A stretch of 64,000 nucleotides of DNA from Terriglobales bacterium (GCA_035543055.1 DATKKJ010000148.1:1-64000); one strand, 5' to 3'. Shown: positions 5,891-57,424, counted from the first letter of the stretch. A program made the numbers and translations. Notes: generated from the letters alone by a model not told the origin.

Positions 5891-5915
5891 AACCCACGTC
5901 CGACGGAAATGACAG

Positions 5916-14129: not shown

Positions 14130-14887
14130 ACCTTCCACGGGGCCTGCCCGGAGTTCCAGAGTTCCTCGAGGTGGTTCTTGTCGCGGAGCGTGTCCATGGG
14201 CTGCCAGAAACCGCTGTGCTTGTAGGTAGAGAGCTGGCCTTCGCGGGCCAGGCGCTCCAGGGGCTCGCGCTCCCAGATGGTGTGGTCGTCGGCGATGTAG
14301 TCGATGACTTTCGGCTTGAGCACGAAGAATCCGCCGCTGACCCAGCCTTCGCCGCTCGGCTTCTCGCGGAAGCGCACCACGCGCGAGCCGCGCAGTTCGA
14401 GGGCGCCGAAGCGCGCCGGCGGCTCGACCGCAGTGACCGTGACCAGCGTCTTCTGCTTCTTGTGGAAGGCCACCAGCGCCTTGATGTTGATGTCGGCCAG
14501 GCCATCGCCGTAGGTGAAGCAGCAATCGTCCTTGCCGAGGTACTCGCGGACACGCTTCAGGCGGCCGCCGGTCTGGGTCTCGAGCCCGGTGTCCACCACG
14601 GTCACCCGCCAGGGCTCGGCGGTGTTGCGGTGCACTTCCACCCTGTTGCGGGAGACGTCGAAGGTGACATCGGAGGTGTGCAGGAAGTAGTTGGCGAAGT
14701 ATTCCTTGATCTGGAATCCCTTGAAGCCGCAGCAGATGACGAAATCGTGGATGCCGTGGGCGGAGTAGATCTTCATGATGTGCCAGAGGATGGGGCGCCC
14801 ACCGATCTCGATCATGGGCTTGGGGCGCAGCACGGTCTCTTCGCTGATGCGCGTCCCCATTCCCCCGGCCAATATGACGGCTTTCAA
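14120..14887 (-). CDS. rfbF: Glucose-1-phosphate cytidylyltransferase
   Basis: A 255-residue nucleotidyltransferase that makes CDP-glucose from CTP and glucose-1-phosphate. It starts with the signature [19 protein letters not shown] is residues 8-13. It continues with [30 protein letters not shown] (metal-binding Asp) and [18 protein letters not shown], all diagnostic for RfbF. The start is a TTG at 14887, chosen because GGAGG lies seven bases upstream and because the protein then begins exactly at the nucleotide-binding motif. It feeds rfbG directly and overlaps it by ten bases. Confidence 0.97.
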
Positions 14888-22509: not shown

Positions 22510-23586
22510 TCAAGTTCGCGCGTATAGGAACTCGCGGTACCTGCCCGCACCAGCATACCAAGGTGAAATCGTCTTGCTGAGCAAGCGGAAGCCGTCGATC
22601 GCAAAACTTGACGCTGGTATTTCCACGTGGCCGTGTGTCTGAAACGCCACATCGCTATTCTCGTGATAGAAATAGCCACGAGTGCATCGCGCTATGTGAG
22701 CTAGGTATTCCCGTATCGTCCCAACGTCCATCTCGGAAAGACTACGCGTATTGAAAAGCACATCCACCGACATATCGGGCAGGGTTGGTAAACAATAATT
22801 GGGGTAAAGAACAGCGTCATACCGCCTGGGGTCAGCAAGTACGGTTTGGGGGTCCGATTCACCGTACAGCGCGACCGTTGCTGTTGGGTTGACAGAACAC
22901 AGCCAAAAGGAGGCGATCAGCAGTACTTCGGGGAGGTCAAAATCCAGGTACGTGACGCCGCGATGTTGCAGGGCAAAATGACCGCATTCGCCGTATCCAC
23001 CGCCGATTTCGGCGACAGTCCCGGGCCCACCCAATAACGTGAGTATCCTGGACGTGGTGTAATGATGGCGGAACGTACTTCCCATCACCAAGGTGTCGCC
23101 GATCCAGTAGCCACAAGGGTTTCCGACCGGTGGCGCATTCAGTGCGGTCAGATCGCCTCCAATGAGCTTCCGCCACACCTGATAATCGTGCAGTGCGGCG
23201 TTGGCGAACCCGACCTTCGTATACCACGTGGACAGGGCCTTAGGGTCGCTCCGGTCGGCGATACTCGCAACCGCATCGTTGCGAAACATGTTCTCAAGCA
23301 CTTTCGTTAGCGGCCCTACATCGTCACTTAGCAACTGCAGTTTCTCTGCGATGATAGTGGTCCACTCGCCGGTCGGCTGATAGAAAGGCGCAGCACCGGC
23401 CTGGTCACGTTTCGCTGCGCGATAGGCTTCCCTGACTCGAAAAACGAGTTGGGGATTCGCAGGTTGCCCTCGGTCAGCAAATCCTTTCTTGACCGCAGCC
23501 AGAGAAGCCAGCGGGTCGGAACGAAAGTCAGCCACCTGACTTATGAGCGTCCGTGACTTTCGCAGCAGTGTGTCGGCTATGCTCAT
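22510..23586 (-). CDS. Putative sugar O-methyltransferase
   Basis: A 358-residue protein of the putative sugar O-methyltransferase family found in polysaccharide clusters. Conserved features are YWIGDTLVMGSTFRHHYTTSRI, the SAM-binding turn VAEIGGGYGECGHFAL, YLDFDLPEVLLIASFWL, VLFNTRSLSEMDVGTIREYL and RGYFYHENSD. Base composition is visibly poorer in G and C than in its neighbours: several 60-base lines are near or below half G+C, while flanking lines are around 60 per cent or more. Codon choice is also less biased. This suggests recent acquisition of this single gene within the cluster. No clear ribosome binding site precedes the ATG. Substrate unknown. Confidence 0.9.
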   Translation of the reverse strand: MSIADTLLRKSRTLISQVADFRSDPLASLAAVKKGFADRGQPANPQLVFRVREAYRAAKRDQAGAAPFYQPTGEWTTIIAEKLQLLSDDVGPLTKVLENMFRNDAVASIADRSDPKALSTWYTKVGFANAALHDYQVWRKLIGGDLTALNAPPVGNPCGYWIGDTLVMGSTFRHHYTTSRILTLLGGPGTVAEIGGGYGECGHFALQHRGVTYLDFDLPEVLLIASFWLCSVNPTATVALYGESDPQTVLADPRRYDAVLYPNYCLPTLPDMSVDVLFNTRSLSEMDVGTIREYLAHIARCTRGYFYHENSDVAFQTHGHVEIPASSFAIDGFRLLSKTISPWYAGAGRYREFLYART

Positions 23587-23640
23587 GAGGGAAACTCTAT
23601 CGCAACGGCCCCAGGGCGGTCAGGGGGAAGACTGTCGCCC

Positions 23641-24474
23641 TCAAGACTTCACCCCCCTAGCCAGCAAGGAATCGGACCTCCGCGCTGCTTCGAATCCGCG
23701 AAGGAACTGAACGGAGCCGAACCCGGACTTACGTAGCATGGTTCCGATCTGCGCCCGGTTGTAATAGGCGAGGGTCTCCGTACGCCCTGCGTCGATGGCG
23801 CCGTCGCGGCCGATGAATGTCTTCTGATGGCGGACGATGCCGCGTTTCGGCCAGTATTGCCGTTCGTGCAAGTAATAGGCGAAGCGGTCTTCCGGAGGAA
23901 GTGGATCCCAGGTACGCAGATGGTTCCCGTTGAGAGCAAACATCCTGCGCATCTTCGGCGCCAGGGGATAGAGCTCCAGCAGAACCCTCCCGCCGGTGGC
24001 GAGACCGGCATGTAGCCGCGACAGGACCTTGGCCGGCGCCGCGGCCGAGATGGGCCGGAAGTACTGGAAGGCTCCCGTCAGGCAGACGGCCAGGTCGAAG
24101 GACCTCTGCGGCGCCTCGACCTGCAATACATCCTCGTTGCGAAATTCGACCTGCCGGAGACCCAATTCGGCGACCCAATCCCGGGCAAAGCCGATCCGCG
24201 AGGCGGCGAGGTCGATGCCGAGGCCGTATTCCACCAGCCCTGCCTGTGCCAGAGCCACCAGCAGTCGCCCATTACCGCAGCAGAACTCGAGGACGCGCAA
24301 CTTCCGGCCGCGGGGGGTGAGCTTGCGCCGGATGAACTCCACCTGCGCGGCGGTCTTGCGTAACAGGAGCGCGCGGTACTGCTCCAGTTCCAGCCGGGAG
24401 GGGAAGTTCGCGGGCGCTTCGACCCCCTCATAGTCACAGCGGGAAGCGTGTCCGGACTTCTTCCGTGCGGTCAT
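23641..24474 (-). CDS. Class I SAM-dependent methyltransferase
   Basis: A 277-residue methyltransferase. SAM motif I is seen as LRVLEFCCGNGRLLVALAQAG at about residues 59-79, followed by GLGIDLAASRIGFARDW and the motif II region FDLAVCLTGAFQYF. A C-terminal part with TLAYYNRAQIGTMLRKSGF is typical of small-molecule methyltransferases. The ATG overlaps the stop of the upstream gene (ATGA). Its neighbours are the MptE/GT42-like protein and the low-GC O-methyltransferase, so modification of the same sugar is possible. Confidence 0.87.
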   Translation of the reverse strand: MTARKKSGHASRCDYEGVEAPANFPSRLELEQYRALLLRKTAAQVEFIRRKLTPRGRKLRVLEFCCGNGRLLVALAQAGLVEYGLGIDLAASRIGFARDWVAELGLRQVEFRNEDVLQVEAPQRSFDLAVCLTGAFQYFRPISAAAPAKVLSRLHAGLATGGRVLLELYPLAPKMRRMFALNGNHLRTWDPLPPEDRFAYYLHERQYWPKRGIVRHQKTFIGRDGAIDAGRTETLAYYNRAQIGTMLRKSGFGSVQFLRGFEAARRSDSLLARGVKS

Positions 24475-25421
24475 CGTGCTGCTCTGCCTGCGCCGGCGAG
24501 CTCCAGCAAGGCGCCGGGGACTTCGGCGATGTTCGGCCAGAGCGCCGAAGACCGGTTCTCGACGTAAAGCTCGACGCCGGCCGGATCGAGCACCTGCTGT
24601 TTCAGTTCCGCCACCACTTCATCGATGGGCATGGTCCCCCAGGCGTAGCGGGTCAGGGTGAAGTGCTTACCGGTCCGCGGCATGTACTCGAGCTGGGCCG
24701 TTTCTGGGTACAGCACCGGGTCCTGATAGAAGTATTCCGCTCGCGTGAGGTCCACGCCGCACAGCACGATCTTGCGATACCCCATGCAGACCCCCAGCGT
24801 GATCATGGTACTGAGCGTCCCGGTCACCTTGAGCAGGGCGCCGACATGGTCGCTGCGCGCGAACTCTCCGCGCTCGGCCAGCCGGCGGATCCCCTCCGCC
24901 AGTTCCTGGCGATCGCGTGCGATCAGCCGGATGGTCTCGGCCGAATAGGTCGCGCGACGAAACTCCTCCGGCAGATCGAAGATGTACTGGTGGGCGGGGT
25001 TGGCGATGTCCATCACCACCTTCAGCGTGTCTTCGTAGTCGGCCGCGCGTTCGGTCAGGACCTGGAGGAGGCGCCGGTCGTGCTCGGGATAGAAGTCCGC
25101 CGGATTGCTCTCGAAGAAGTACATCCTGGGCACGAAGGGGTGGATGGGCCAGAAATTGAAGCCCACGGAATCGTGCGCGGCGATGGCGGCCCAGCGCTCG
25201 GCGGTGATCTGGTTGATGGAGGCGCCGCTGCCCAGCACGAACAGGACGTCGCTCCGCTTGACGCTGCCGAGGTCGCAGTCCTGCAGCCGCTTGAAACCTG
25301 CCCGGCGATGGGCCTTCTCATGCAACGGCTGAAACGTCCGCCGGGCCCGCCAATAGTACAAGGGCAGCAGCAGCGAATACGGCAGGTGATCGCGAACCAT
25401 GTGCTTCAGGGAACGGAGCAT
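24471..25421 (-). CDS. MptE-like / GT42-like Rossmann protein, possible glycosyltransferase
   Basis: A 316-residue protein. VLFVLGSGASINQITAERWAAI at about residues 60-81 looks like the nucleotide-binding opening shared by DUF115/MptE-like proteins and GT42 sialyltransferases (family pattern GxGPSL). FNFWPIHPFVPRMYFFE and MGYRKIVLCGVDL fit the same fold, the latter resembling the GxDL strand of DUF115 proteins. No signal peptide is seen. It sits 27 bases downstream of the fusion gene that contains a cytidylyltransferase domain, and a NeuB-family synthase lies nearby. Transfer of a CMP-activated nonulosonate is a testable guess. Family assignment by eye is tentative. Confidence 0.7.
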   Translation of the reverse strand: MLRSLKHMVRDHLPYSLLLPLYYWRARRTFQPLHEKAHRRAGFKRLQDCDLGSVKRSDVLFVLGSGASINQITAERWAAIAAHDSVGFNFWPIHPFVPRMYFFESNPADFYPEHDRRLLQVLTERAADYEDTLKVVMDIANPAHQYIFDLPEEFRRATYSAETIRLIARDRQELAEGIRRLAERGEFARSDHVGALLKVTGTLSTMITLGVCMGYRKIVLCGVDLTRAEYFYQDPVLYPETAQLEYMPRTGKHFTLTRYAWGTMPIDEVVAELKQQVLDPAGVELYVENRSSALWPNIAEVPGALLELAGAGRAAR

Positions 25422-25448
25422 CGTTTTATGGCGTGGACCCTTCCCTTC

Positions 25449-28400
25449 TCATGCCCGGCGGAAGACCGGGGAGACCGGAGGCCCCTCCAGGCGCGTCTCG
25501 ACGTTGCCGGCCGCGATGGCTTCCGCCATCACGCCCAGCGCCGCCCGGTAAGCGCGGAGCGTGTGCTCGACATCCTGGGCGCTATGGCTGGCGCAGAGCA
25601 TGTGGTATCCGGCGCACAGTACCCCGCGCTTGATGACTTCCTGCTGGAAGAGGCTTTTCAGCGCCAGCCACTCGGCGCCGGTATCGTCCTTGAAGTTGAT
25701 GACGGTGCGAGGCGGGTACCCGATACATGCGGTGTAGCGCTCCAGCCCGAGTTTCTGGGCCAGCGTGTTGTACCCGTCGCGCAGCCGCTCGCCCTGCTCC
25801 CAAATGCGGTCGATCGCCTTTCGCTCCCGCAGCGCCCGGATGGTGGCCAGTGCCGCCGCCAGACCCAAGGCATCACCGCCGAAGGTGAAGGAGAAGAACA
25901 CCTCGTCGAAGATCTCCATCACGTCTCTACGCCCGACCACGGCGGCGATGGGATATCCATTCCCCATGGCCTTGCCGAAGCAACCCAGGTCCGGCGTGAC
26001 CTTGAAATATTCCTGCGCGCCCCCGAGCGCCATGCGGAAGCCGGTGATCACCTCGTCGAAGATGAGCAGAGCGCCCTCGCGGTGCGCCAGGTCTTTCACC
26101 TGCTGCAGGAACCCTTCTTGCGGAGCGATGACTCCGGCCGGTTCCATGATCACGGCAGCGACCTGGCCACGATGTTCGGCGAAGATCCGTTCCAGGCTGG
26201 CGAGGTTGTTGTATTCGAAGCCGGCGACCAGCTGCTGGACCGCCGCCGGGACGCCCTTGTTCCGGGTGGTGGCGCCGATGTACCAGTCCTGCCAGCCGTG
26301 ATATCCGCAGAAGGCGACCATGTCGCGGCCGGTGAACCCGCGTGCCGCCCGGACCGCGCCCGCGGTGACGTCGGAGCCGTTCTTAGCGAAGCGCACCATC
26401 TCCGCGCACGGGATCATTTCCACCAGGACCTTAGCAAGCTCGACCTCCAGGGGATGCGGCAGCGAGAATGCATAGCCGCTTTCCATCTGCTGCCCGATCG
26501 CCCGGTTCACGTCGGGATCGGCATGGCCCAGGATCACCGGGCCGAGGGCCATGGAATAGTCGATGTACTCGTTGTCGTCCACGTCCCAGACGTGCGACCC
26601 GCGAGCGCGCGCCAGGTACACTGGCGAAACCCCCTGCACGAACTGCGTCGGCCCCTTGCTGAACGTCTGCGAATACGAAGGGATGAGCCGGCGTGCCTCT
26701 TCTTTCAGGCCTTGGGAGGCGGCGAGCGTGCGGGTTGTGGCAGCCATCGGTTCCTCCGCGATCAGGCTCTTGTAGTACCCCTCGTTGCGGATGATCCCGC
26801 GATTGAGCGCAGCCACTTCCGGGTGTTCCTTGACTGCCTTCAGCAGTTCGCCGAGAGCAAAGCTGACCTTCCCTCCGAGCAACGCGTACAGCGCGCGGGT
26901 GAACTCCAGGTCTGCGCCCTCGTCCACGGTCAGGCGCAGGTCCGGCGGCCCCTCTCCATCCTGGGCGGAGACGTTCTGCACGCGGAAGCGGTCAGAGAGC
27001 TTGATATACGGGGTTACGTGCTCGCGCTCGGGCTCGCGCTTCGCTTCCTTCCAGGCGGTCTCGAGTGCAGCCATGGAAAAGACCTCGGTGTCGAGTCCGT
27101 CCGGAAAGGTGTGGGCCAGAGTGTTCGAAACGTAATCGGCATCGCCGTCCAGATAGGCTCCGACCACGCGGTCGATCACGCCAGGGTCGATGAACGGGCA
27201 ATCCGCGGTGATACGCACGACGGCGCCGGCGCCGTGCGCTCGCGCCGCCTGGTAATAGCGGTCGAGGACGTCGTCCTCACTCCCCCGGAACACCGGGAGC
27301 CGTTCGCCCTGGCAGAACCCGACCACCGCTTCGTCGCTCGCGGAGGTGGTGGTAGCCACCACCACTTCCTGCACCGTCTTGGCCCGGCGCACGCGCTGGG
27401 TGACGTACCACAGCATCGGTCTCCCGGCGACGTCCGCCAGGACCTTGCCGGGCAAACGAGTGGAACCCATGCGGGCCTGCACGATGGCAACGACCTTGGA
27501 CGACCGGCGGTCCGGCGGGCGGATCCTCATCGCCGCACCGGTCGGCGCCGATTCCCGGGCCGCCAGCGCGATGCGCAGCACCCGCTCGCCCTCCCACACG
27601 TCGCAGAGCGGCCGGTCCTTGCCGTCAAGGCAGTTCAGGAAATGCTGCATCTCGTCCACGTACATCTGGTTCAGCTGCCAGTCGGGGGGACTGGTCCAGG
27701 TCTCCCACTGCCCGGTGGCCGAGCGATAGCAACGGACCTGTCCGGTCACGAAGTGCCACCGGATCGTGCCCTGGTCTCCGATCACATGACAGGTCCGGCT
27801 CCTGGCCCGCTGCACGTAGTCAAGATGGATCTCGGAGATAGCGCCGCTGCTGTGCCGAAGGAGGATGGCGGCCACATCCTCGGTATCGATCTCTAGGTGG
27901 CTGAGCTTGCCCGCGAGGCACGACACGCTCTCCACCTCTCCCATCAGCTCGCGGACGTAGTCCAGCTCGTGGATGGCATCGAGGATCACGCCCCCTCCCA
28001 ACTGGCGCCGCGCGCTGTAGCCCTGGCGATAGTCTTCCCAAGGGTGCCACTCGGGCAGGTAGTGCCCGGTCTCGGCCCGGAGGGCCACTACTTTGCCGAC
28101 AGCCCCCTCAGTGATCAGCGCCTTCATTTGCCGGATGCCGGGAATGAATCGCGTATTGAAGCCCGCGAACGTGATCAGGTCCTTCTTCCGGACGAGTTCC
28201 AGCAAGCGGCTTACACCGTCCAGGCTGTCGGAAAGAGGCTTTTCGATGAACAGGTGACAGCCCCGCTCCGCCGCCTCGATCGCCGGAGGGATGTGCATGG
28301 CGGTCGGCGTGGCGATGACGGCCACGTCGGGCTTGAGCGGCCAGGCGTCTTCCAACCGCTCCACGACCGGCACGTGGCATTTCTCCGAGGCCTCGGCGCG

Positions 28401-28553
28401 GCGGTCAGGGCGGGGATCGAAGGCGATCACATCGTCCACGCCCAAGGCTTGGAGGTTACTGATGTGCCGTTTTCCGATGGAACCGCAACCGACGACCAGG
28501 AATCGCCGAGGCCGCTGTGGGGACGGAGGCATGTTTGCATGCGATTCTAGCAA
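25449..28553 (-). CDS. Three-enzyme fusion: Gfo/Idh/MocA oxidoreductase, SpsF-like cytidylyltransferase, class III aminotransferase
   Basis: A single uninterrupted frame of 1034 codons. Residues about 15-335 form an NAD(P)-dependent Gfo/Idh/MocA oxidoreductase (VVGCGSIGKRHI, then FIEKPLSDSL with the EKP motif at 104-106). Residues about 352-600 form an SpsF/NeuA-like cytidylyltransferase (VVAIVQARMGSTRLPGKVL, ADCPFIDPGVID). Residues about 603-1034 form a class III aminotransferase of the glutamate-1-semialdehyde aminomutase type (YHGWQDWYIGATTRNKG, LLIFDEVITGFR, PLP lysine Lys861 in CFGKAMGNGYP). The start is TTG at 28553 with GGAG four bases before it; ATG at 28532 is the alternative. An ATG at 26747 is preceded by GGAGGAACCG, so the aminotransferase might also be made separately. 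Together the parts could oxidise, aminate and CMP-activate a nonulosonate-like sugar. Confidence 0.9.
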   Translation of the reverse strand: MLESHANMPPSPQRPRRFLVVGCGSIGKRHISNLQALGVDDVIAFDPRPDRRAEASEKCHVPVVERLEDAWPLKPDVAVIATPTAMHIPPAIEAAERGCHLFIEKPLSDSLDGVSRLLELVRKKDLITFAGFNTRFIPGIRQMKALITEGAVGKVVALRAETGHYLPEWHPWEDYRQGYSARRQLGGGVILDAIHELDYVRELMGEVESVSCLAGKLSHLEIDTEDVAAILLRHSSGAISEIHLDYVQRARSRTCHVIGDQGTIRWHFVTGQVRCYRSATGQWETWTSPPDWQLNQMYVDEMQHFLNCLDGKDRPLCDVWEGERVLRIALAARESAPTGAAMRIRPPDRRSSKVVAIVQARMGSTRLPGKVLADVAGRPMLWYVTQRVRRAKTVQEVVVATTTSASDEAVVGFCQGERLPVFRGSEDDVLDRYYQAARAHGAGAVVRITADCPFIDPGVIDRVVGAYLDGDADYVSNTLAHTFPDGLDTEVFSMAALETAWKEAKREPEREHVTPYIKLSDRFRVQNVSAQDGEGPPDLRLTVDEGADLEFTRALYALLGGKVSFALGELLKAVKEHPEVAALNRGIIRNEGYYKSLIAEEPMAATTRTLAASQGLKEEARRLIPSYSQTFSKGPTQFVQGVSPVYLARARGSHVWDVDDNEYIDYSMALGPVILGHADPDVNRAIGQQMESGYAFSLPHPLEVELAKVLVEMIPCAEMVRFAKNGSDVTAGAVRAARGFTGRDMVAFCGYHGWQDWYIGATTRNKGVPAAVQQLVAGFEYNNLASLERIFAEHRGQVAAVIMEPAGVIAPQEGFLQQVKDLAHREGALLIFDEVITGFRMALGGAQEYFKVTPDLGCFGKAMGNGYPIAAVVGRRDVMEIFDEVFFSFTFGGDALGLAAALATIRALRERKAIDRIWEQGERLRDGYNTLAQKLGLERYTACIGYPPRTVINFKDDTGAEWLALKSLFQQEVIKRGVLCAGYHMLCASHSAQDVEHTLRAYRAALGVMAEAIAAGNVETRLEGPPVSPVFRRA

Positions 28554-28657
28554 ACTTCTCCACGCCCCCTCCCGCGGCGCGCTTCTGATAACATCCGGCT
28601 AGCATCGATCCAGGTCCCACCGATCCGCACCCGCGTATGGGCCACAATGCGAGCGAC

Positions 28658-29587
28658 ATGATCCTTGTCACCGGCGCCAGCGGTCTGCTGGGCGCGAACT
28701 TCGTGCAAGTGGCCCGGGCCGCTGGCCGGCCGGTCGTGGCCCAGTATCGTCAGCATCCGACCGAGGAGCTGGGCGTGACCTCGATCCGGGCTGATTTGAC
28801 CGATGCCGCTGCGGTCTCGGGGCTGATGGAGAAAGCGCGGCCTGCCTGGGTGGTGCACTGCGCCGCCGCCGCCAACGTCGACTGGTGCGAACAACATCCT
28901 GACGAGGCCCGGCGAATCAACGTGGACGGCTCCCGCATGGTGGCCCGCGAAGCGCGCCGTGCCGGCGCTCGCCTCGTCCACATCTCTACCGATGCCGTCT
29001 TCGACGGCGCCCGCGGCAACTACGCCGAGGACGACACCATCAATCCCGTCAACGAGTACTCGCGCAGCAAAGCGGATGCCGAGGTCGCCGTCCGCGAGGA
29101 GCTGGGAGCGGCGCTCATCGTTCGCACCACCATCTACGGATGGAATTTCCAGCCCAAACAAAGCCTGGGCGAGTGGCTGGTGGCCGAGCTTTCCTCGGGC
29201 CGCAGCGTCATCGGCTTTAGCGACCTGGTTTTCTCCCCGCTCCTGGTGAATCACCTCTCGGAGCTCCTGCTGGAAATGATGGGACGCAGCCTGCAAGGCG
29301 TGTACCACGTGGCCGCCTCCGATTCCTGTACGAAGTATGATTTCGGCAAGCGCATGGCAAGGAAGTTCGGCCTGGACGAATCTCTGGTACGGCCGGGCAC
29401 GACCGAGGACGTGCCGCGTCCTGCCCGCCGGCCCCGGAACCTGTCACTCAACACCGGTAAGATCGCGCGAGCACTGGGGCGGACGATGCCCACGGTGGAT
29501 GAAGGAATTGCCGCCTTCGACGCCCTGCGTGACACCGGTTTTGCAGCACGGATGAAGGACAGAGGACCCGCTCATGCTCAGTCTTGA
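28658..29587 (+). CDS. RmlD-like SDR sugar-nucleotide reductase/epimerase
   Basis: About 309 residues from the ATG at 28658; an in-frame ATG at 28637 would add seven residues. I prefer the later start because the protein then begins MILVTGASGLLGANF, the usual NAD(P)-binding opening. Other family features are VVHCAAAANVDWCEQHPDEA, the phrase STDAVFDGARGNYAEDD and NEYSRSKADAE (YxxxK catalytic pair). VYHVAASDSCTKYDFGKRMA is typical of RmlD-like proteins. The family reduces 4-keto sugar nucleotides. It overlaps the NeuB-family gene by 14 bases and points away from the fusion gene. It might be the ketoreductase missing from the CDP branch, or act in the nonulosonate pathway. Confidence 0.9.
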   Translation: MILVTGASGLLGANFVQVARAAGRPVVAQYRQHPTEELGVTSIRADLTDAAAVSGLMEKARPAWVVHCAAAANVDWCEQHPDEARRINVDGSRMVAREARRAGARLVHISTDAVFDGARGNYAEDDTINPVNEYSRSKADAEVAVREELGAALIVRTTIYGWNFQPKQSLGEWLVAELSSGRSVIGFSDLVFSPLLVNHLSELLLEMMGRSLQGVYHVAASDSCTKYDFGKRMARKFGLDESLVRPGTTEDVPRPARRPRNLSLNTGKIARALGRTMPTVDEGIAAFDALRDTGFAARMKDRGPAHAQS

Positions 29588-30668
29588 CATCGGGCGCCGC
29601 CGCATCGGCGACGACCAGCCCACCTATTTCATCGCCGACATCTCCGCCAATCACGACGGCGACCTGGAGCGGGCGAAGATGCTCATCCAGCTTTGCGCTC
29701 GGGCCGGCGCTGATGCGGCCAAGTTCCAGAACTTCCGCGCACCCAAGATCGTCAGCGAGCAGGGGTTCCGCAGCCTCAGCGCCCAGCTCTCCCATCAGGC
29801 CAAATGGAAGAAGTCGGTTTACCAGGTGTATCAGGAAGCCAGTCTGCCCTGGGAATGGACGCCGGTATTGAAGGCGGAGTGTGACCGCGCCGGGATCGAG
29901 TATTCCTCCACGCCCTACGACTTCGACGCCGTGGACATGCTCGACCCCTACGTCGCGATCTACAAGATCGGTTCCGGCGACATCACCTGGCCGGAGATGC
30001 TGCGCAAGGTGGCGAGCAAGAACAAGCCGGTGCTGCTGGCCTGCGGCGCCTCCGACATCGGTGAAGTAAAGGCGGCGGTGGACACCATCCGTGCCGTCAA
30101 TCCCCGGCTCGGCCTCATGCAGTGCAACACCAATTACACCGCGAGTCTGGAGAACTTCCGCCATATCCATCTCAATGTGCTAAGGACCTTCCGCACCATG
30201 TTCCCCGACTTGGTCCTGGGCCTGTCGGACCACACCCCCGGACATGCCACCGTGTTAGGGGCGGTAGCTCTGGGCGCGCGCGTGGTCGAGAAGCACTTCA
30301 CCGATGACAATGCCCGCGAGGGCCCCGATCACCCCTTCTCCATGACGCCCGCCACCTGGCGGGAGATGGTGGACCGCACCCGTGAGTTGGAGCTGGCCCT
30401 GGGCAGCGCCGAGAAGAAGGTCGCCGGCAACGAACAGGACACGGTGGTGGTGCAGCGCCGCTGCCTCCGCGCTGCCCGCAACCTCGAGCCGGGTACCTTG
30501 CTCACCCGGGATTGCCTCGACGTCCTGCGCCCGGCGCCGCGGGACGCCATCTTTCCTTACGAGATCGACAAAGTGATCGGGATGCGCCTGCGCGCCCGCG
30601 TCGAAGCCGGCCAGCACCTTCGCTGGACCATGCTCGAGGGCGAGCCGAAAGCCGCGGGCCAAAGCTGA
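29574..30668 (+). CDS. N-acetylneuraminate synthase family protein (NeuB/PseI/LegI-like)
   Basis: A 364-residue enzyme of the NeuB family, which condenses phosphoenolpyruvate with a six-carbon sugar to a nonulosonic acid. The TIM-barrel domain opens with YFIADISANHDGDLERA, then GADAAKFQNF, IEYSSTPYDFDAVDML, YKIGSGDITWPEML, KPVLLACGASDIGEV and GLSDHTPGHATVLGAVALGA, all family motifs; VVEKHFTDDNAREGPDH follows with the metal and substrate residues. The C-terminal SAF antifreeze-like domain is at about residues 295-360 (NLEPGTLLTRDCLDVLRP). AGAGGA precedes the ATG at 29574. It shows that the locus makes a sialic-acid-like sugar; which one cannot be told from the sequence. Confidence 0.94.
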   Translation: MLSLDIGRRRIGDDQPTYFIADISANHDGDLERAKMLIQLCARAGADAAKFQNFRAPKIVSEQGFRSLSAQLSHQAKWKKSVYQVYQEASLPWEWTPVLKAECDRAGIEYSSTPYDFDAVDMLDPYVAIYKIGSGDITWPEMLRKVASKNKPVLLACGASDIGEVKAAVDTIRAVNPRLGLMQCNTNYTASLENFRHIHLNVLRTFRTMFPDLVLGLSDHTPGHATVLGAVALGARVVEKHFTDDNAREGPDHPFSMTPATWREMVDRTRELELALGSAEKKVAGNEQDTVVVQRRCLRAARNLEPGTLLTRDCLDVLRPAPRDAIFPYEIDKVIGMRLRARVEAGQHLRWTMLEGEPKAAGQS

Positions 30669-30670
30669 GC

Positions 30671-31798
30671 ATGCGCGTCCTTTATTTCTCGCGGACGCTC
30701 ACCGGCCACGACCGGCGCTTCCTGGCCAAGCTGGCGGAGTCGGAGCACGAGATCTGGTTCCTGGCGCTGGAGGAGCATTCCCCGCTGCCCAGCGACCTGG
30801 CCGCGAAGGTGCGCACCGCCCCCTCTCTCGGCGCGGCGGGCTTCGGGATCAGGCAGCTTCCCGGGCTCGCTCCCCGGTTGCAAGCCTCACTCAGCAAGAT
30901 CCGACCCGACCTGGTGCACGCGGGCCCGGTGCCGTCGTGCGGATACCTGGCAGCGCTTGCCGGCTTCCACCCGCTCCTGCTGCAATCCTGGGGCTCCGAC
31001 ATCCTGGTGGATGCCGATCGTGATGCCGCCCACCAAGAGGCCACCCGGTCGGCCCTGGCGCACGCTGACGCGCTGTTCTGCGATTGCGATGCGGTGCGAG
31101 TGAAGGCACAAAGCCTGGGCGGCCCCACGGGCGACCGCGTGGTGCAGTTCCCATGGGGCGTGGACCTGCAGCGCTTCCGTCCGGGAGCGGCGCCTCAGTC
31201 ACGCCAGCGGCTCGGCTGGCAAGATGCCTTCGTGGTGCTCTCCACCCGCTCCTGGGAACCTCTGTACGGCATCGACGTGCTGGTCGAGGCGTTCCGCCTT
31301 GCGGCGCGGCGCGAACCGCGCCTGCGCTTGCTGCTGGCGGGCAGCGGGAGTCTGGCCCCTGCCGTCGAGGCCCAGATTGCAGCAGGCGGGCTCGAGGGAT
31401 TCACTCATCGTCCCGGCAACATTGACCACGACCAGCTTCCCGATTATTTCCGCGCCGCCGACCTGTTCATGAGTTGCTCCTACAGCGATGGCAGTTCCGT
31501 CTCGATGCTGGAAGCCATGGCCACGGCGCTTCCCGTGCTGCTGACCGATGCCCCGGGGAACCGCGAGTGGGTCGCGGCGGGCGAGAATGGATGGCTTGGC
31601 GCTCCGGGAAACGCAGAATCGTTTGCTACCGGGCTGCTCCGCGCCGTGAAGGCTTCATCCAGGGAACGCGAAGCGATGGGCGCGGCCAACCGCCGGGCCG
31701 TCGAGTCCCGCGCTGACTGGCACCGGAATTTCCCAAAACTGCTGGAAGCTTACTCGCGCCTGGGCAGCGCCAGGACAGAGCGGACGGGCGGCGCCTAG
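30671..31798 (+). CDS. Glycosyltransferase family 4
   Basis: A 375-residue GT-B glycosyltransferase. It begins MRVLYFSRTLTGHDRRFLAKL; LVHAGPVPSCGYLAAL and LLQSWGSDILVDAD are typical N-terminal-domain phrases. VVLSTRSWEPLYGIDVLVEAF opens the C-terminal domain, and SCSYSDGSSVSMLEAMATALPV stands at the EX7E position, with Ser-rich residues before the second Glu. The ATG follows the stop of the NeuB-family gene by two bases, so they are co-transcribed. Transfer of the nonulosonate or an adjacent sugar is inferred from this. The 3' end overlaps the convergent dehydratase gene by four bases. Confidence 0.92.
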   Translation: MRVLYFSRTLTGHDRRFLAKLAESEHEIWFLALEEHSPLPSDLAAKVRTAPSLGAAGFGIRQLPGLAPRLQASLSKIRPDLVHAGPVPSCGYLAALAGFHPLLLQSWGSDILVDADRDAAHQEATRSALAHADALFCDCDAVRVKAQSLGGPTGDRVVQFPWGVDLQRFRPGAAPQSRQRLGWQDAFVVLSTRSWEPLYGIDVLVEAFRLAARREPRLRLLLAGSGSLAPAVEAQIAAGGLEGFTHRPGNIDHDQLPDYFRAADLFMSCSYSDGSSVSMLEAMATALPVLLTDAPGNREWVAAGENGWLGAPGNAESFATGLLRAVKASSREREAMGAANRRAVESRADWHRNFPKLLEAYSRLGSARTERTGGA

Positions 31799-32832
31799 CG
31801 TGCGCCTGGTCGCGTCTCGTGCTGTGCGGCCGTCACCGGCTCCGGTGCAGCCTCTTCACGGATCAACCCCTGGAGCTCGGGGACGCGCAGCCACTGCGTG
31901 TTAGTGTCACTGGCATAGCGGAAGCCGTCTGGTAGAGACTTGCCGTGCCTCCATCCGTTGGTCTCCCACCAGGGATGATTGGGCTTGATCACGTACATGT
32001 TCTCCAACTCGACGGTGTGCCGGGCTTCGTCCTCCGAAACCAGCACCTCGTGGACCTTCTCTCCCGGGCGGATGCCGACGGTGTCGGTCTTGCATCCCGG
32101 CGCCACTGCCTCGACCAGGTCCATGATGTTCATGCTGGGCAGCTTGGGAACGAAGATCTCGCCCCCCTGCATCTGGCGGATGCACTCCAGGACGAAGCGC
32201 ACGCCCTGGTCCAGGGTGATCCAGAAGCGGGTCATGCGCGGATCGGTGACCGTGACCCGGCCGCTGGCTCGTTGCGCCTGGAACACCGGGATCACGCTTC
32301 CCCGGCTGCCGACGACGTTGCCGTAGCGGGAGACGCTGAAATGCGTATCCTGGTCACCGGAGTAAGCATTGGCCTGCACGAACATCTTCTCCGCGCACAG
32401 CTTGGTGGCGCCGTAGAGGTTCACGGGATTCACCGCCTTGTCGGTGCTGACCGCCAGGACCTTCTTCACGCCCTGGTCAAGGGCGGCGTCGATCACGTTC
32501 TTGGCTCCCACCACGTTGGTCTGCACTGCCTCGAAGGGGTTGTACTCGCAGGCCGGAACCTGCTTGAGGGCGGCGGCGTGGATGACCATGTCCACCCCGC
32601 GGAAGGCGCGCTCCATGCGATCGCGATCGCGCACGTCGCCCAGGAAGTAGCGCAGCGGCGAGCCCGGTCCGTCGGGGAAATCGCGCCGCATCTCGTGCTG
32701 CTTGAGCTCGTCGCGGCTGAAGACGATCAGCTTCTTCGGGTGGTGTTCCTTGAGCGCGATCTGCAGCAACTTCTTCCCGAACGATCCCGTGCCGCCGGTG
32801 ATGAGGACTGATTGCCGATCCAGAACGCCCAT
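31795..32832 (-). CDS. pseB: UDP-N-acetylglucosamine 4,6-dehydratase (inverting), PseB-like
   Basis: A 345-residue SDR enzyme. TGGTGSFGKK is the NAD(P) loop (residues 12-21). VFSRDELKQHEMRRDF, HAAALKQVPACEYNPFEA, STDKAVNPVNLYGATK (Asp131, Lys132, Tyr140, Lys144) and RYGNVVGSRGSVIPVF match PseB/FlaA1 closely. The product would be UDP-4-keto-6-deoxy-L-AltNAc, the first intermediate of pseudaminic acid. The ATG at 32832 is preceded by AAGGAG at good spacing; the frame extends upstream but without support. The gene faces the glycosyltransferase at its 3' end and the tyrosine kinase gene at its 5' end. It may feed the NeuB-family enzyme or a separate 6-deoxy-HexNAc residue. Confidence 0.93.
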   Translation of the reverse strand: MGVLDRQSVLITGGTGSFGKKLLQIALKEHHPKKLIVFSRDELKQHEMRRDFPDGPGSPLRYFLGDVRDRDRMERAFRGVDMVIHAAALKQVPACEYNPFEAVQTNVVGAKNVIDAALDQGVKKVLAVSTDKAVNPVNLYGATKLCAEKMFVQANAYSGDQDTHFSVSRYGNVVGSRGSVIPVFQAQRASGRVTVTDPRMTRFWITLDQGVRFVLECIRQMQGGEIFVPKLPSMNIMDLVEAVAPGCKTDTVGIRPGEKVHEVLVSEDEARHTVELENMYVIKPNHPWWETNGWRHGKSLPDGFRYASDTNTQWLRVPELQGLIREEAAPEPVTAAQHETRPGAR

Positions 32833-33095
32833 AATCTCCTTGAAAGGCCTCTCGCCTCGATTCCCTCCCCTTTTGAAACGCCTGGGACCGCCCCGGGAAG
32901 AGAAGTGATGACTTTGGTGCGGCTGATTGTAGTTGATTCTAAAGGACCGGCGCGATGGGGTGGTATGATACGAAGCAATCCGTTCTCCATAGGGTGGCCG
33001 CTGATACAATCGTGTGTAATCCGGTCCAGCGTTCAAAGCCTCGGCCTCTCTGCCTCTGCGCCCAGCGAAGCCCAAGATGGTGAGGAGTAGTACGG
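32833..33095. other. Divergent intergenic region between the pseB-like and wzc-like genes
   Basis: The stretch separates two divergent genes and must hold promoters in both directions. It is more AT-rich in its middle. On the plus strand TATGAT and TACAAT occur as possible -10 elements, but neither has a convincing -35 at 16-18 bases, so I assign no promoter. GAGGAG just before 33096 is the ribosome binding site of the kinase gene. Confidence 0.5.
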
Positions 33096-35342
33096 GTGGA
33101 GTCTGACAAGCTAGTCCGCAGCGCTCAGCCGGCCGAACTCGGGCCTCCCCTGATGCCCTATCCCTACGGTCCCGGCACTCCCGAAGAGGCGTCCCTTGGC
33201 GAGTACTGGCGGATCCTGGTAAAGCGGAAGTGGACCGTCATCGCGACCCTGGTCGTGGTCATGACCCTGGCTACGGTCATCTCGCTGCGGACCACGCCTC
33301 TATACATGGCCGTGGGGAAGATTGCGATCTTCCGCGACAGCAACGACCTGGTCAACTTCAAGGACGTGGGCACCACTACCTCAGACGACTGGGACTACAC
33401 CGTCGCGATGGATACGCAGGTGAAGATCCTGCAAAGCGACTCTATGGCGCTGGCGGTGGGGCGAAATCTCGCCGCTGGCAGCGCCGCCGCCAAGGAGAAC
33501 GTGCAGAACCTGGGGACCATCCCCCTGGGAACGACCGCGAGCCTGGATCCCAAGCAGGAGCAGGCCGCCATCGGCGAGATCCGCTCCAATCTGACCATCA
33601 CCACGATTCCCAACACGCGCATGATCGAGATCCGCTTCCTGAGTCCCGATCCCAATCGCGCGGCGCAGGTCGTCAACACTCTCACCAGCACCTTCATCCA
33701 GGAGAACCTGAAGACCCGCTATGAATCCATCATGCAGGCCTCCGACTGGCTGCAAAAGCAGCTCGCCGACCTGCAGATGAAAGTCGAGGTCTCGCAGGAA
33801 AAGCTGGTGAAGTACCAGAAAGAGAACGACATCCTGGGGATCGACGAGAAGCAGAACATCGTCACCGTCAAGCTGGACGAGTTGAACCGCGACCTGATCG
33901 CAGCCCAGGCCGACCGCATCCAGAAAGAGGCCAACTACAAGCTGGCGCAGAAAGGCAGCGCCGAGCTCAATTCCGGCCAGCCGAACAACCTGCTGGAGAA
34001 GCTGCGCACCCAGGAGTCCGACCTCAAGACGCTGCTGGCGCAGCTCAGCACCCAGTTTGGGCCGTCGTATCCCAAGGTCAGGGAGGTCAAGAACCAGCTG
34101 GCGCAGGTCGAAGCCTCCATCCTGCAGGAGAACAGCAAGGCCTTGGCGCGCATGCAGCGCGATTACCAGACCGCCATGCAACGGGAACAGCTGCTGCGGG
34201 GCGCCCTCGAGGAGCAGAAGGCGGAGGCCAACAAGCTCAACCAGCGGGCCATCCAGTACAACCTGCTGAAGCGCGATGTCGATACCAACCGCCAGCTCTA
34301 CGAAGGCTTGCTGCAGAAGCTCAAAGAGGCGGGGATGGCGGCCGGCCTGAGGTCGAGTAACATCCGCATCATCGATTCCGCGCGTGTTCCCACTTCACCG
34401 GCGACGCCGGACATCCCGCGGAACCTGGCGATCGCACTGCTCATCGGGCTGACCGGCGGCGTGGCCCTGGCCTTCGTGCGCGAATCGCTCGACAACACCA
34501 TCCGCACGCCGGAGCACGTGGCTCAGATCGCCGCCCTGCCTGCGCTAGGCATCATCCCCAGCAGCCTGCGCCTGGCCCCCAAAGCGGGCAACGGCCGGCC
34601 GAACCTGACTTTGGCGGCCGCCACCGCACGGGGCGACGGCATCGAACTGGTCTCGCATTCGCGTCCCAAGTCGGAGATGGCGGAGGCTTACCGCGCCTTG
34701 CGTACTTCCATCCTGCTCTCGTCGCTGGGCGCGCCGCCCAAGGTCATCCTGGTGACCAGCGCGCTGCCGCAGGAGGGCAAGACCACCACCAGCATCAACT
34801 CGGCCATCGTGCTGGCGCAGAAGGGCGCGCGCGTGCTGCTGGTGGACGCCGACCTGCGCCGTCCCGGCATCCATCAGAAGATGGGGCTGAAGCCGAGGGC
34901 CGGCCTGAGCACGCTGCTGGCCGGCAGCGAGACTTTCGACAATCTCGTGATCCCCTCGCCCCAGCTGCCCAATTTGTTCGTGTTGCCGGCGGGACCGGCC
35001 CCGCCCCACCCGGCGGAGCTGCTGGGCTCCGACCTCATGAAGAACTATCTGGCGCAGTGGCGGGAGCGCTTTGACCACATCCTGATCGACACGCCGCCGG
35101 TGCTCAGCGTTACCGACGCGGTCCTGCTCTCGGTGGATGCCGACTCGGTGGTGCTGGTCATCCGCTCGGGACAGACGACCAAGGAAGCCCTGCGCCGCGC
35201 CCGCAGCATATTGACCCAGGTGAACGCGCGCATGATGGGCGTGGTCCTCAACGCGGTCGACCTCCAGTCTCCCGACCTCCACTACTACTACTACGGCACC
35301 AAGTACGGCGGGCAATACTACGAAGAGAACCCGCGCAACTAA
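33096..35342 (+). CDS. Polysaccharide co-polymerase with tyrosine autokinase (Wzc-type BY-kinase)
   Basis: A 748-residue inner-membrane protein that controls chain length and export. The N-terminal Wzz domain has a first membrane helix (about 46-66) after YWRILVKRKW. A long periplasmic coiled-coil and GNVR-like region runs to about 430. The second helix is near 445-465. The cytoplasmic kinase has Walker A in TSALPQEGKTT (Lys562) and Walker A' in VLLVDADLRRPG, and IDTPPVLSVTDAVLL is the Walker B region. The last 22 residues hold seven tyrosines (HYYYYGTKYGGQYYEE), the expected autophosphorylation cluster. The GTG start has GAGGAG upstream. It leads a plus-strand operon with the TPR/CBM-like and ligase genes. 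Confidence 0.95.
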   Translation: MESDKLVRSAQPAELGPPLMPYPYGPGTPEEASLGEYWRILVKRKWTVIATLVVVMTLATVISLRTTPLYMAVGKIAIFRDSNDLVNFKDVGTTTSDDWDYTVAMDTQVKILQSDSMALAVGRNLAAGSAAAKENVQNLGTIPLGTTASLDPKQEQAAIGEIRSNLTITTIPNTRMIEIRFLSPDPNRAAQVVNTLTSTFIQENLKTRYESIMQASDWLQKQLADLQMKVEVSQEKLVKYQKENDILGIDEKQNIVTVKLDELNRDLIAAQADRIQKEANYKLAQKGSAELNSGQPNNLLEKLRTQESDLKTLLAQLSTQFGPSYPKVREVKNQLAQVEASILQENSKALARMQRDYQTAMQREQLLRGALEEQKAEANKLNQRAIQYNLLKRDVDTNRQLYEGLLQKLKEAGMAAGLRSSNIRIIDSARVPTSPATPDIPRNLAIALLIGLTGGVALAFVRESLDNTIRTPEHVAQIAALPALGIIPSSLRLAPKAGNGRPNLTLAAATARGDGIELVSHSRPKSEMAEAYRALRTSILLSSLGAPPKVILVTSALPQEGKTTTSINSAIVLAQKGARVLLVDADLRRPGIHQKMGLKPRAGLSTLLAGSETFDNLVIPSPQLPNLFVLPAGPAPPHPAELLGSDLMKNYLAQWRERFDHILIDTPPVLSVTDAVLLSVDADSVVLVIRSGQTTKEALRRARSILTQVNARMMGVVLNAVDLQSPDLHYYYYGTKYGGQYYEENPRN

Positions 35343-36641
35343 GTGTCCGCTCCGGCAAAGAACTCGCGACCCAGAGAACGAGCGCCCGACGGACAGGAGA
35401 GGGTCCTGCGCTGGCCGCTGGAGGGAGGGCGCCGCCTCCGATTCCTTGCCTGCGGCATCGCCGTGGTCGCGCTGTTCATCGCCTGGGTGGGCGCCGACCT
35501 TGCCGCCAAGCTGCTGGCCACGAGCCTGCGCCCCGAGCGGGTGGCGCTGGCGGCGCATCTCGACCCTTTCAATGCCGCCTATCCACACATCCTGGGGCGC
35601 ATCGCGTTTTACCAGCGCCAGGACCTGCCCGTAGCCATCGAACATTACGGCGCCGCGACACGTCTGAACCGCTACTCGGCACGCTACTGGCTCGACCTGG
35701 CCAACGCGCAGCAGATCATGGCGCAGGCGGAGGAGTCGCGGAAGTCGTTGCAGCAAGCCCTGGCTGCCGATCCCACCAATCCGATGGTGACGCGCGAAGC
35801 CGCCAATTACTACCTGGTGCTAGGTGATACCCAGACCGCCCTCAGGCTGCTGGCCATGACCGTCCGCTACGATCCGCCGAACGCCCGCAGCGCCATTGAC
35901 CTGAGCTGGCGCGCGACCCAGGATGCGCGCGCGGTGATGAACCAAGTCCTGCCGCCGACGGCCGACGCCTACCTTCTTTTCCTGCAGGTGCTGATGGAGC
36001 GCCGCCAGGCCGACGCCGCGCTGCAAGCCTGGGACGGCATCATGGCGCTCAAGCAGAATGTTCCCCTGGATTCCGCTCTCCCTTACATCCAGTACCTGAT
36101 CGACGAAGGCCGGATCGAGCGCGCACACGCTGCCTGGACCCAGATAAGGCGGCGCGAGGGCACGCGCGCCACCGGGGAAAGCCTGGTGGACAACGGAGGC
36201 TTCGAGGACGACATCGTCAACGGCGGTTTCTCCTGGCGCTACCAGAATCAGCCGCATGTCGCGCTGGCCATCGACCAGCGCGATGCCTACCACGGGCGGC
36301 GCTCGTTGCTCATCACCTTCGACGGTGAGGCCGTCCAGGACGCGGGAATCTACCAGTTCATCGCCGTCGAGCCTGACACCGGCTACCGCCTGAGCGCGCG
36401 AGTGAGGACCGACGATCTGGAGGGGGCGGGCGCTCCCCAGCTGCTGGTTGCCGATCGCACCGGCAAACCGTTCTTCCTGTCAGAGCCGTTCGCCGCGAGC
36501 GGCGCCTGGCGTGAAGTCACAGGAGACTTCCGCACCGGCGCCGATACCAAGCTGATGGCGCTCCGTGTGGTGCGGGTGCCGGGCAAAACGCGGATCCGCG
36601 GCAAGGTCTGGCTGGACGATCTTTCGGTGGTGCGCAAGTGA
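35343..36641 (+). CDS. Membrane-anchored TPR protein with C-terminal carbohydrate-binding-like domain
   Basis: A 432-residue protein. One membrane helix lies at about residues 36-58 (LRFLACGIAVVALFIAWVG). TPR-like helices follow from about 70 to 270, with ARYWLDLANAQQIMAQAEES as the clearest repeat. The last 150 residues form a beta-rich domain with LVDNGGFEDDIVNGGFSW, YRLSARVRTDDLEG and GKVWLDDLSVV, the pattern of CBM4_9-like carbohydrate-binding modules. The GTG start directly follows the kinase stop, and its end overlaps the ligase start (GTGA). A role in polymer handling in the periplasm is likely from this coupling; a specific function is not known to me. Confidence 0.85.
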   Translation: MSAPAKNSRPRERAPDGQERVLRWPLEGGRRLRFLACGIAVVALFIAWVGADLAAKLLATSLRPERVALAAHLDPFNAAYPHILGRIAFYQRQDLPVAIEHYGAATRLNRYSARYWLDLANAQQIMAQAEESRKSLQQALAADPTNPMVTREAANYYLVLGDTQTALRLLAMTVRYDPPNARSAIDLSWRATQDARAVMNQVLPPTADAYLLFLQVLMERRQADAALQAWDGIMALKQNVPLDSALPYIQYLIDEGRIERAHAAWTQIRRREGTRATGESLVDNGGFEDDIVNGGFSWRYQNQPHVALAIDQRDAYHGRRSLLITFDGEAVQDAGIYQFIAVEPDTGYRLSARVRTDDLEGAGAPQLLVADRTGKPFFLSEPFAASGAWREVTGDFRTGADTKLMALRVVRVPGKTRIRGKVWLDDLSVVRK

Positions 36642-37981
36642 TCGCTCCAACAGGCGCCGCCGAGATGGCCGCCCCCGCATCCAACATCCGGAGCGTGCGC
36701 GGGCGCTACCTGCACAACGCGCTGGTGTACGGGTTGTGCGCGCTGCTGAGTTTCGGTCCCTTGGCCTTCGGCGCCACCGAATCGTGGTCGGTGGCCGTGC
36801 TTGAGATCGGCACGGCCGTGCTCATATTGCTGTGGATGGGCAAGCAGGCGGGCCTTGGCCGGGTCAAGATCCACCTGATTCCGCTGTACCCGCCGATGGC
36901 GCTGCTGGGCGCGCTGGTCCTGTTCCAGTTGCTTACCGGGCTGACCGCCTACCGCTCCATCACTCTGTCACGCGCCGTGCTCTTCGTGACCTACGCTGCC
37001 ATCCTCTTCCTGGTGAGCCACACTCTGCGTAGCGACCGCGACTTGCGGCTGTTCTCCATCTGGTTCTCGGTCTTCGGCTTCCTGGTCGCGTTGTTCGCCA
37101 TCGTCCAGGGATTCACAGACAAGACGGGCAAGCTCTACTGGGTGCGCCTGCCGCGGAACCCGGGCTGGACCTACGGGCCCTACGTGGACCACAGCCATTA
37201 CGCGGGATTGATGGAGATGCTTCTGCCGCTTCCGCTGGTGCTGGCAGTTCTGGGCGTCGAGCGCGGCCCCAAGCGCGCTCTTCTATGGCTGAGCGCAGGG
37301 ACCATTGCGGCGTCCATCTTCCTCTCTCAGTCCCGCGGTGGAGTGCTGGCAATGCTGCTCGAGCTGGTGTTCCTGGCAACCCTGACCCTGCCCAAAAGCT
37401 CGTTGCGACGGCACCATCGGCGCAACTTCCTGCTGGCCGCGGCGGCGATCTGCTTCCTGGCCTTCGTCGGCTGGTTGGGAGGCGAGGCCTTGCTGCAGCG
37501 CTTCTCGGTCCCGCGGCCGCAGGAGCTGGCGCAGCCGGGCCGTCTCACCATCCTTAAAGACAGTCTTCACCTTTGGGCGCGCAAGCCGCTGACCGGCTGG
37601 GGGTTGGGAACCTACCCCCTGGTCTTCCCCCAGTTCCGCAGCTTTTACACCAGCCTGTTCATCAATCACGCGCACAACGACTACGTCGAACTCATCGCCG
37701 AGACGGGAGTGGTAGGAGCTGCGGCCATCGCCTGGTTCCTGTTCGTCCTCTATCGCGCCGGACTGCGAAAGGCCCGGACCCAGCAGAGCCGCATCATCGA
37801 TGCCATGACCCTGGCGGCGCTGACATCCTGCACCGCCATCGTGGCCCACAGCTTCTGGGATTTCAACCTGCAGATCCCGGCCAATGCCGCGCTCTTCTTC
37901 GCCTTCTGCGGCCTGGCCGCGACCCCCATCATCGCGCCCCGCGTACGGGAGCAAGCGTCCGGCGATCTGCCCCAGCCCTGA
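36638..37981 (+). CDS. O-antigen ligase / Wzy-type polymerase family protein
   Basis: A 447-residue polytopic protein with about 11-12 membrane segments. The family's periplasmic loop is seen in TGWGLGTYPLVFPQFRSF and NHAHNDYVELIAETGVVG, where the conserved His-Asn-Asp-Tyr stretch marks the Wzy_C/O-antigen ligase domain. PYVDHSHYAGLMEMLLPL and SQSRGGVLAMLLELV are further family motifs. It probably polymerises or ligates the lipid-linked repeat units flipped by the protein at 20914-22449. It ends 11 bases before the convergent stop of the next gene. Confidence 0.92.
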   Translation: MIAPTGAAEMAAPASNIRSVRGRYLHNALVYGLCALLSFGPLAFGATESWSVAVLEIGTAVLILLWMGKQAGLGRVKIHLIPLYPPMALLGALVLFQLLTGLTAYRSITLSRAVLFVTYAAILFLVSHTLRSDRDLRLFSIWFSVFGFLVALFAIVQGFTDKTGKLYWVRLPRNPGWTYGPYVDHSHYAGLMEMLLPLPLVLAVLGVERGPKRALLWLSAGTIAASIFLSQSRGGVLAMLLELVFLATLTLPKSSLRRHHRRNFLLAAAAICFLAFVGWLGGEALLQRFSVPRPQELAQPGRLTILKDSLHLWARKPLTGWGLGTYPLVFPQFRSFYTSLFINHAHNDYVELIAETGVVGAAAIAWFLFVLYRAGLRKARTQQSRIIDAMTLAALTSCTAIVAHSFWDFNLQIPANAALFFAFCGLAATPIIAPRVREQASGDLPQP

Positions 37982-57202: not shown

Positions 57203-57231
57203 TTGACCGTGGTAGGTGACGGGCATACGAT
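57203..57231 (+). promoter_or_regulatory. Sigma-70-type promoter of the VCBS/PKD protein gene
   Basis: TTGACC at 57203-57208 and TACGAT at 57226-57231 are separated by exactly 17 bases. Five of six bases match the -35 consensus and four of six the -10. Transcription would begin near 57238 and give a leader of about 187 bases. Confidence 0.65.
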
Positions 57232-57424
57232 TTTTCCCTCCCTATCACCACATCTCCCCCACTTGCGCCTTTGTCTCCCAGGAGAGGCGCGCTTTGTTGG
57301 CTGCACCAGGGCCGAGTCAAGCAGTCGGGCCATTCGATTTGAGTTTCTTGAGCACTCGCTTCACCGAGGAGCCGTCGTGCGCGAATCGAGAGAAGCTGGA
57401 CCGTTGTCAGGGAGGAATGCCACC

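Follow-up and report, generated by a model that had tools for sequence, protein, structure and literature searches.

The window, by which we mean the whole 64,000-nucleotide stretch of Terriglobales DNA that was analyzed, carries on its minus strand a frame of 1034 codons from a TTG (25449–28553) in which three enzyme domains follow one another. An in-frame ATG at 28532, seven codons inside the TTG, is the likelier start and would give a product of 1027 residues. The first domain is a Gfo/Idh/MocA oxidoreductase (OX; 27531–28505, minus strand; residues 17 to 341; PF01408, PF22725, and PF02894). A short linker (27498–27530, minus strand; residues 342 to 352), into which the OX stop and the start of the following domain fall in split homologues, leads to a cytidylyltransferase of the SpsF-type CTP_transf_3 family (CT; 26781–27497, minus strand; residues 353 to 591; PF02348). 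The frame closes with a class III pyridoxal phosphate (PLP) aminotransferase (AT; 25455–26744, minus strand; residues 604 to 1033), assigned from PF00202, its likeness to PRK06209, and Foldseek.

Downstream on the same strand, after a gap of 27 nt, lies a gene for a 316-residue protein that belongs to no Pfam family (24471–25421), followed with a 4-nt overlap by a SAM-dependent methyltransferase (23641–24474; Methyltransf_25) and then by a putative sugar O-methyltransferase of the NanM type (22510–23586; NCBIfam TIGR04371, over cut-off). Divergent from the fusion, the plus strand encodes an RmlD-like 4-keto-sugar reductase of the SDR type (28637–29587; PF04321; 203 bits with TIGR01214, under the cut-off of 224), a NeuB-family nonulosonate synthase with a SAF domain that overlaps it by 14 nt (29574–30668; PF03102 and PF08666), and a GT4-type glycosyltransferase called by Pfam, whose start is uncertain (30512–31798). 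PseB, the inverting UDP-GlcNAc 4,6-dehydratase, is found at 31795–33075 (minus strand; TIGR03589, 497 bits against a cut-off of 407.75) and is followed by a polysaccharide assembly block on the plus strand (33096–37981) that comprises a Wzz/BY-kinase (33096–35342), a TPR-CBM protein (35343–36641), and a Wzy/O-antigen ligase (36638–37981). This block is syntenic with a Terriglobia locus (L038) and with a genome of the same genus (G265). Elsewhere in the window, we observed a PseC-like DegT aminotransferase far under the PseC cut-off (2026–3261, minus strand), a polyprenyl glycosylphosphotransferase and a polysaccharide deacetylase near the XrtA/PEP-CTERM type (5252–7452, minus strand; TIGR03006, slightly below cut-off), branched deoxy sugar genes in which a CDP-glucose 4,6-dehydratase adjoins a C-methyltransferase (11815–14525, minus strand; Methyltransf_13/14), and a 1504-residue FG-GAP repeat protein (57203–61717, plus strand) next to a 1435-residue outer membrane barrel of the TonB-dependent type (52695–57002).

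Domain searches with Pfam and NCBIfam divided the fusion product cleanly into OX, CT, and AT, in agreement with the original prediction of three enzymes in a single frame and with its fold calls. GFO_IDH_MocA covers residues 17 to 131 and its C-terminal domains extend to 340, CTP_transf_3 covers 355 to 522 (115 bits against a gathering score of 22.6 for PF02348), and Aminotran_3 covers 644 to 934 (177 bits against 30.5 for PF00202), all well over cut-off. OX belongs to the Gfo/Idh/MocA family by its Rossmann and Gfo C-terminal domains, with PF01408, PF02894, and PF22725 over cut-off, and by its EKP motif and catalytic His; CT matched PDB entry 6oew and KdsB structures; and the family nearest to AT is NCBIfam PRK06209, which residues 604 to 1033 match with 443.7 bits, under the equivalog cut-off of 486. 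The motifs that had been called intact (EKP, ARMGSTRLPGK, and Lys861) were borne out by a family alignment of 59 sequences, in which E104-K105-P106, D192, and H195 of OX, D451 and D544 of CT, and the PLP lysine K861 of AT are invariant, and the CT nucleotide-binding motif QARMGSTRLPGK (359 to 370) is conserved. AlphaFold2 run on this alignment returned three compact domains (pLDDT of 90.7, pTM of 0.72).

The openness of the 1034-codon frame is in itself weak evidence, because the opposite strand is also open, over 1143 codons (24465–27896, plus strand). That antisense frame is longer than the fusion and spans both it and its neighbor gene; we regard it as a high-GC shadow frame without independent support, and we accordingly set frame length aside as an argument for the fusion. 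What does argue for a real fusion is the domain homology, a third-position GC content that is even (0.82 to 0.85, in the same frame) across all three domains, OX homology that runs in frame to the natural OX C terminus with CT beginning ~10 residues on, and the confident structural model. It is conceivable that a stop or frameshift was lost through a mistake in sequencing or assembly, such that the true genes are OX plus CT-AT: The genome is a metagenome-assembled genome (MAG) of 255 contigs, and an error within ~10 codons at the junction would be enough. We nevertheless regard this as highly improbable, given the even GC3, the in-frame homology up to the junction, and eight other MAGs with the same architecture. 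The two borders at which a frameshift had been suspected, 27530 and 26747, lie within short linkers and show no shift of frame in the assembled sequence. As far as can be judged from the sequence, the fusion gene is real and intact.

A scan of ~85,000 species genomes yielded the best 80 related loci, to which all locus counts below refer. CT and AT form a single protein in ~60 of the 80 loci, across many phyla, and are separate in ~10. All three domains reside in one protein in eight loci, all from independently assembled Terriglobia/Acidobacteriaceae MAGs (L038–L042, L048, L055, and L058), so that homologues of the fusion are by no means always three genes. The original mention of Acidobacteria is supported as well, since the AT of a same-family genome (G023) is identical to the AT of an MAG that NCBI names Acidobacteriaceae. 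These numbers fit the original expectation that the activities are usually separate or at most paired, and show the triple architecture to be rare, though not unique. Sampling 396 genomes from the phylum and 399 from the class brought up no additional triple fusion; among viral contigs, the scan found a single partial relative, whose CT and AT lie in different frames. One locus (L057) is truncated at a contig end, and another (L089:3698-6815) resembles a ninth Terriglobia triple fusion with a frameshift inside CT, either an assembly error or a pseudogene. In split homologues, the separate OX gene mostly ends within a few nucleotides of where CT begins, and an overlap of 4 nt is frequent. The haloarchaeon Halorussus aquaticus keeps the same order in three adjacent OX, CT, and AT genes; its plasmid (L145) also carries NeuB, DegT, and SDR genes.

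The window's fusion and those of the Terriglobia/Acidobacteriaceae share all three domains and their arrangement, at ~48 to 49% overall identity, with PseB and polysaccharide genes nearby, but they differ in origin, and the Terriglobia loci retain a DegT gene beside PseB. The closest relatives of the window's OX are stand-alone OX genes from deltaproteobacterial MAGs (60%). The window's CT and AT resemble most closely those of loci with a split OX in Desulfobacteraceae, Myxococcota, and Chloroflexota, rather than those of the Terriglobia fusions. A single clade of the nine triple fusions was rejected in both trees (p-AU of 2e-4 for OX and 4e-75 for CT plus AT), and with it a shared origin of the window's fusion and the Terriglobia ones. 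The same junction was thus fused independently at least twice, provided that the trees reflect the history of the genes rather than recombination at this point. This convergence had been overlooked in the original prediction, as had the absence of PseG, NeuC, and a true PseC described below; the fusion itself stands.

The related loci point to the pathway in which these enzymes act. Within the fetched flanks of the 80 loci, we counted PseB in 56, PseC/DegT in 63, PseG in 33, and NeuB/PseI in 51; the module is part of pseudaminic acid operons of the form PseB-PseC-[Gfo or aldo-keto reductase]-CT-AT-PseG-PseI. The link to a nonulosonate pathway that had been drawn from the neighboring NeuB gene thus finds support in operons that hold PseB, PseC, PseG, and PseI. 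A Gfo/Idh/MocA enzyme precedes CT-AT in at least 36 loci; in ~24, this slot belongs to the unrelated aldo-keto reductase family. The module with either redox enzyme occurs in at least 18 phyla plus haloarchaea. That two non-homologous redox enzymes occupy one slot next to an aminotransferase suggests oxidation followed by amination. Compared with the canonical PseB-C-H-G-I-F pathway, PseB is present in the window and PseC, PseG, and PseI in related loci, but an SpsF-type CT fused to AT stands in place of PseF, and redox and amination enzymes are added. We consider the pathway assignment strong as far as nonulosonates in general are concerned and weak for the exact product.

Several described systems resemble the window in part. 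On the Pseudosulfitobacter plasmid pSMR1-1, the annotated order is pseB-pseC-aldo/keto reductase-GNAT-hypothetical-[CT-AT]-pseG-pseI, a Pse-type operon with a CT-AT fusion (WP_089422657.1) of the same families in the same order; there, the redox enzyme is a separate gene and an aldo-keto reductase, and the fusion is annotated merely as an "aminotransferase class III-fold PLP-dependent enzyme." The Pse cluster of Vibrio B9-25K2 encodes an aldo-keto reductase fused to an SpsF-type domain (PMC7371886), a redox-CT joint like that of the window, but with another redox family than Gfo/Idh/MocA and with AT outside the fusion. The same kinds of genes occur in the O-antigen loci of Legionella pneumophila serogroups 6 and 12 (PMC3694923). 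SpsF of Bacillus subtilis is a cytidylyltransferase required for legionaminic acid transfer (PMC7439481); unlike the window's CT, it stands alone, in a pathway without OX or a class III AT. Sinorhizobium RkpLMNO, considered as a characterized counterpart of AT, was discarded as uninformative because its RkpN is a genuine homologue of PseF (PMC7591256). Literature searches retrieved no characterized enzyme of the OX-CT-AT or CT-AT type from a pseudaminic pathway, and literature and PDB searches no function-tested member of the AT subfamily.

The genome of the window comes from an assembly rated 100% complete. In whole-genome searches, the NeuB at 29574–30668 was the only full NeuB; it scores under both equivalogs (236.8 bits against 340.25 for PseI and 267.7 against 399.65 for NeuB_NnaB) and matches only the general PF03102 model. 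The same searches returned no match to PseG, no NeuC, and at best 254.5 bits against the PseC cut-off of 423.5. Two DegT genes were examined as a hidden PseC and rejected: The one at 2026–3261 has its orthologue (84%) in another DegT of G265 that is not the PseC, and a copy on another contig (C74) is 34% identical to the G265 PseC. Among the CTP_transf_3 proteins of the genome, only the fused CT resembles a CMP-nonulosonate synthetase; the other strong one is KdsB. A gene on contig C49 that might have been taken for a second such synthetase is the N-terminal part of KdsB, with the remainder on C31; KdsB is broken across these two contig ends (L156 and L157), which shows that the assembly has breaks.

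In the same-genus genome G265, the matching locus contains PseC, PseG, PseI, and a lone CT, without OX or AT there. Its flanks are conserved, at 80% identity for PseB, 77% for Wzz, and 77 to 84% for the flanking PseB and polysaccharide genes in general, compared to 34% for NeuB. Since the window has the fusion, the RmlD-like gene, and a different NeuB between conserved flanks, the middle of the nonulosonate cluster (22510–33075, against contig C3 of G265; L133 and L134) was, by this comparison, exchanged in the window's lineage. A homologue of the 316-residue neighbor, about 52 to 53% identical, is present in the matching locus of G265. Members of this family are uncommon: within the phylum, 3 of 297 genomes encode one. 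The window's protein carries the segments VLGSGASIN and GVDLTRAEYF, shows sub-threshold similarity to GT42 sialyltransferases and MptE-like/DUF115 proteins, and matches two GT42 sialyltransferase structures weakly (E of about 0.3); its single-sequence model was too poor to use (pLDDT of 35.8). We regard it as a candidate transferase for CMP-nonulosonates, and these proteins possibly form a new transferase family for such sugars.

AT shares its fold and PLP site with glutamate-1-semialdehyde aminomutase (HemL), at about 31 to 34% identity, but has an invariant YHGWQDWYIG segment where HemL has YHGHxD. Its score of 283 bits against an equivalog cut-off of 527.3 (TIGR00713), its context, and the presence of separate class III aminotransferases at other sites of the genome rule it out as the HemL of the heme pathway. 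Its structural neighbors in Foldseek include FumI (TM of 0.91 to 0.92) and GenB4, a sugar C-6' aminotransferase. FumI acts on a CH(NH2)-CH3 group, and FumI and GenB-type class III enzymes handle groups of the methyl-ketone type.

Taken together, we would give an even chance to the fusion being a trifunctional nonulosonate enzyme that oxidizes a hydroxyl, most likely at C8, transaminates the product, and makes the CMP-sugar. With NAD(P), OX would turn a single nonulosonate hydroxyl into a ketone, AT would convert this ketone into an amine with PLP, and CT would join the acid to CMP for a transferase, probably the one encoded by the next gene. C8 is favored because its oxidation would yield a methyl ketone (CH3-CO-), the group handled by the FumI/GenB-type neighbors, and the product would be an 8-amino-8-deoxy pseudaminate-like sugar. 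The intact motifs, the confident folding of all domains, the pseudaminic acid operons around CT-AT, the two redox families in the preceding slot, the OX-CT-AT order in Halorussus aquaticus, the two independent fusions, the single NeuB and single likely CMP-nonulosonate synthetase of the genome, and the structural neighbors of AT favor such an enzyme; its common substrate, the C8 position, the reaction order, and any channeling are our inference. In the Kdo8N pathway of Shewanella, as in our proposal, a keto-deoxy acid is oxidized, aminated, and activated with CMP, with KdnA as the aminotransferase step. This pathway differs from the window in that its enzymes are of other families and unfused, the first being the 8-oxidase KdnB, an iron alcohol dehydrogenase (PMC5125639), and that its sugar has eight carbons. 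An 8-amino-3,5,7,8,9-pentadeoxynonulosonate of the manno type occurs in Flexibacter maritimus (PMC3210612). None of the CT-AT loci could be linked to an organism from which an 8-amino sugar is known, which counts against C8, as does L. pneumophila, where a similar gene set goes with a polymer in non-1 serogroups whose sugar is 5,7-diamino and lacks the 8-amino group (PMC3694923). The NeuB substrate, moreover, is left unexplained by a genome without PseG, NeuC, or an above-cutoff PseC, which also weighs against a trifunctional enzyme of this kind.

These absences speak for an alternative in which AT, and OX with it, acts before condensation: AT would replace PseC on the UDP-4-keto-6-deoxy sugar made by PseB, or OX and RmlD would rework the hexose, and NeuB and CT would follow. 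PseB is indeed present, the missing genes are missing from an assembly rated complete, and the matching locus of G265 does have PseC, PseG, and PseI. We consider this order of events unlikely, however, as class III and DegT aminotransferases are different families, and as CT-AT co-occurs with a PseC/DegT gene in 63 of the 80 loci, so that the ancestral job of the CT-AT family was not that of PseC. Still, given the absence of PseC and PseG, the fusion may provide here an amino group that elsewhere comes from PseC. OX and AT might instead invert a stereocenter via a ketone or imine, adding no amine and giving an epimeric nonulosonate. The relative GenB2 is described as an isomerase of gentamicin biosynthesis, glutamate-1-semialdehyde aminomutase is itself a mutase, and L. 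pneumophila with its similar gene set has been linked to a D-glycero-D-talo sugar (PMC3694923 and PMC3210612). Yet an epimerization carried out by OX alone would not require AT, and nothing we found is specific to inversion; this we judge decidedly unlikely. It is also quite unlikely, in our view, that the fusion is neutral, arising from loss of a stop codon between overlapping, co-translated genes that have no common substrate or channeling. Because split genes frequently overlap by 4 nt or sit a few nucleotides apart, one small indel or stop loss suffices to fuse them; but the fusion arose at least twice, is kept intact in eight related MAGs, and in many phyla most CT-AT pairs are fused.

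We can imagine, as a tentative and on the whole rather unlikely scenario, that the widespread pseudaminic-type branch with a Gfo or aldo-keto reductase and CT-AT makes CMP-activated triamino nonulosonates. The window's genome would then carry a shorter form of this branch that does without PseC and PseG, and the fusion would add the second amino group after condensation.

Gene fusions reveal enzymes that work together. Databases name OX and AT "oxidoreductase" and "glutamate-1-semialdehyde aminomutase"; the fusion connects both with the synthesis of CMP-nonulosonates and with operons in many phyla. It represents a known kind of pathway with a new enzyme arrangement, in which OX, CT, and AT, neighboring genes in most bacteria, are united in one protein. 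It thereby provides a testable proposal for a step behind the amino-rich, sialic acid–like surface sugars of bacteria, and such fusion proteins may serve as single-protein catalysts for producing sugars of this type.
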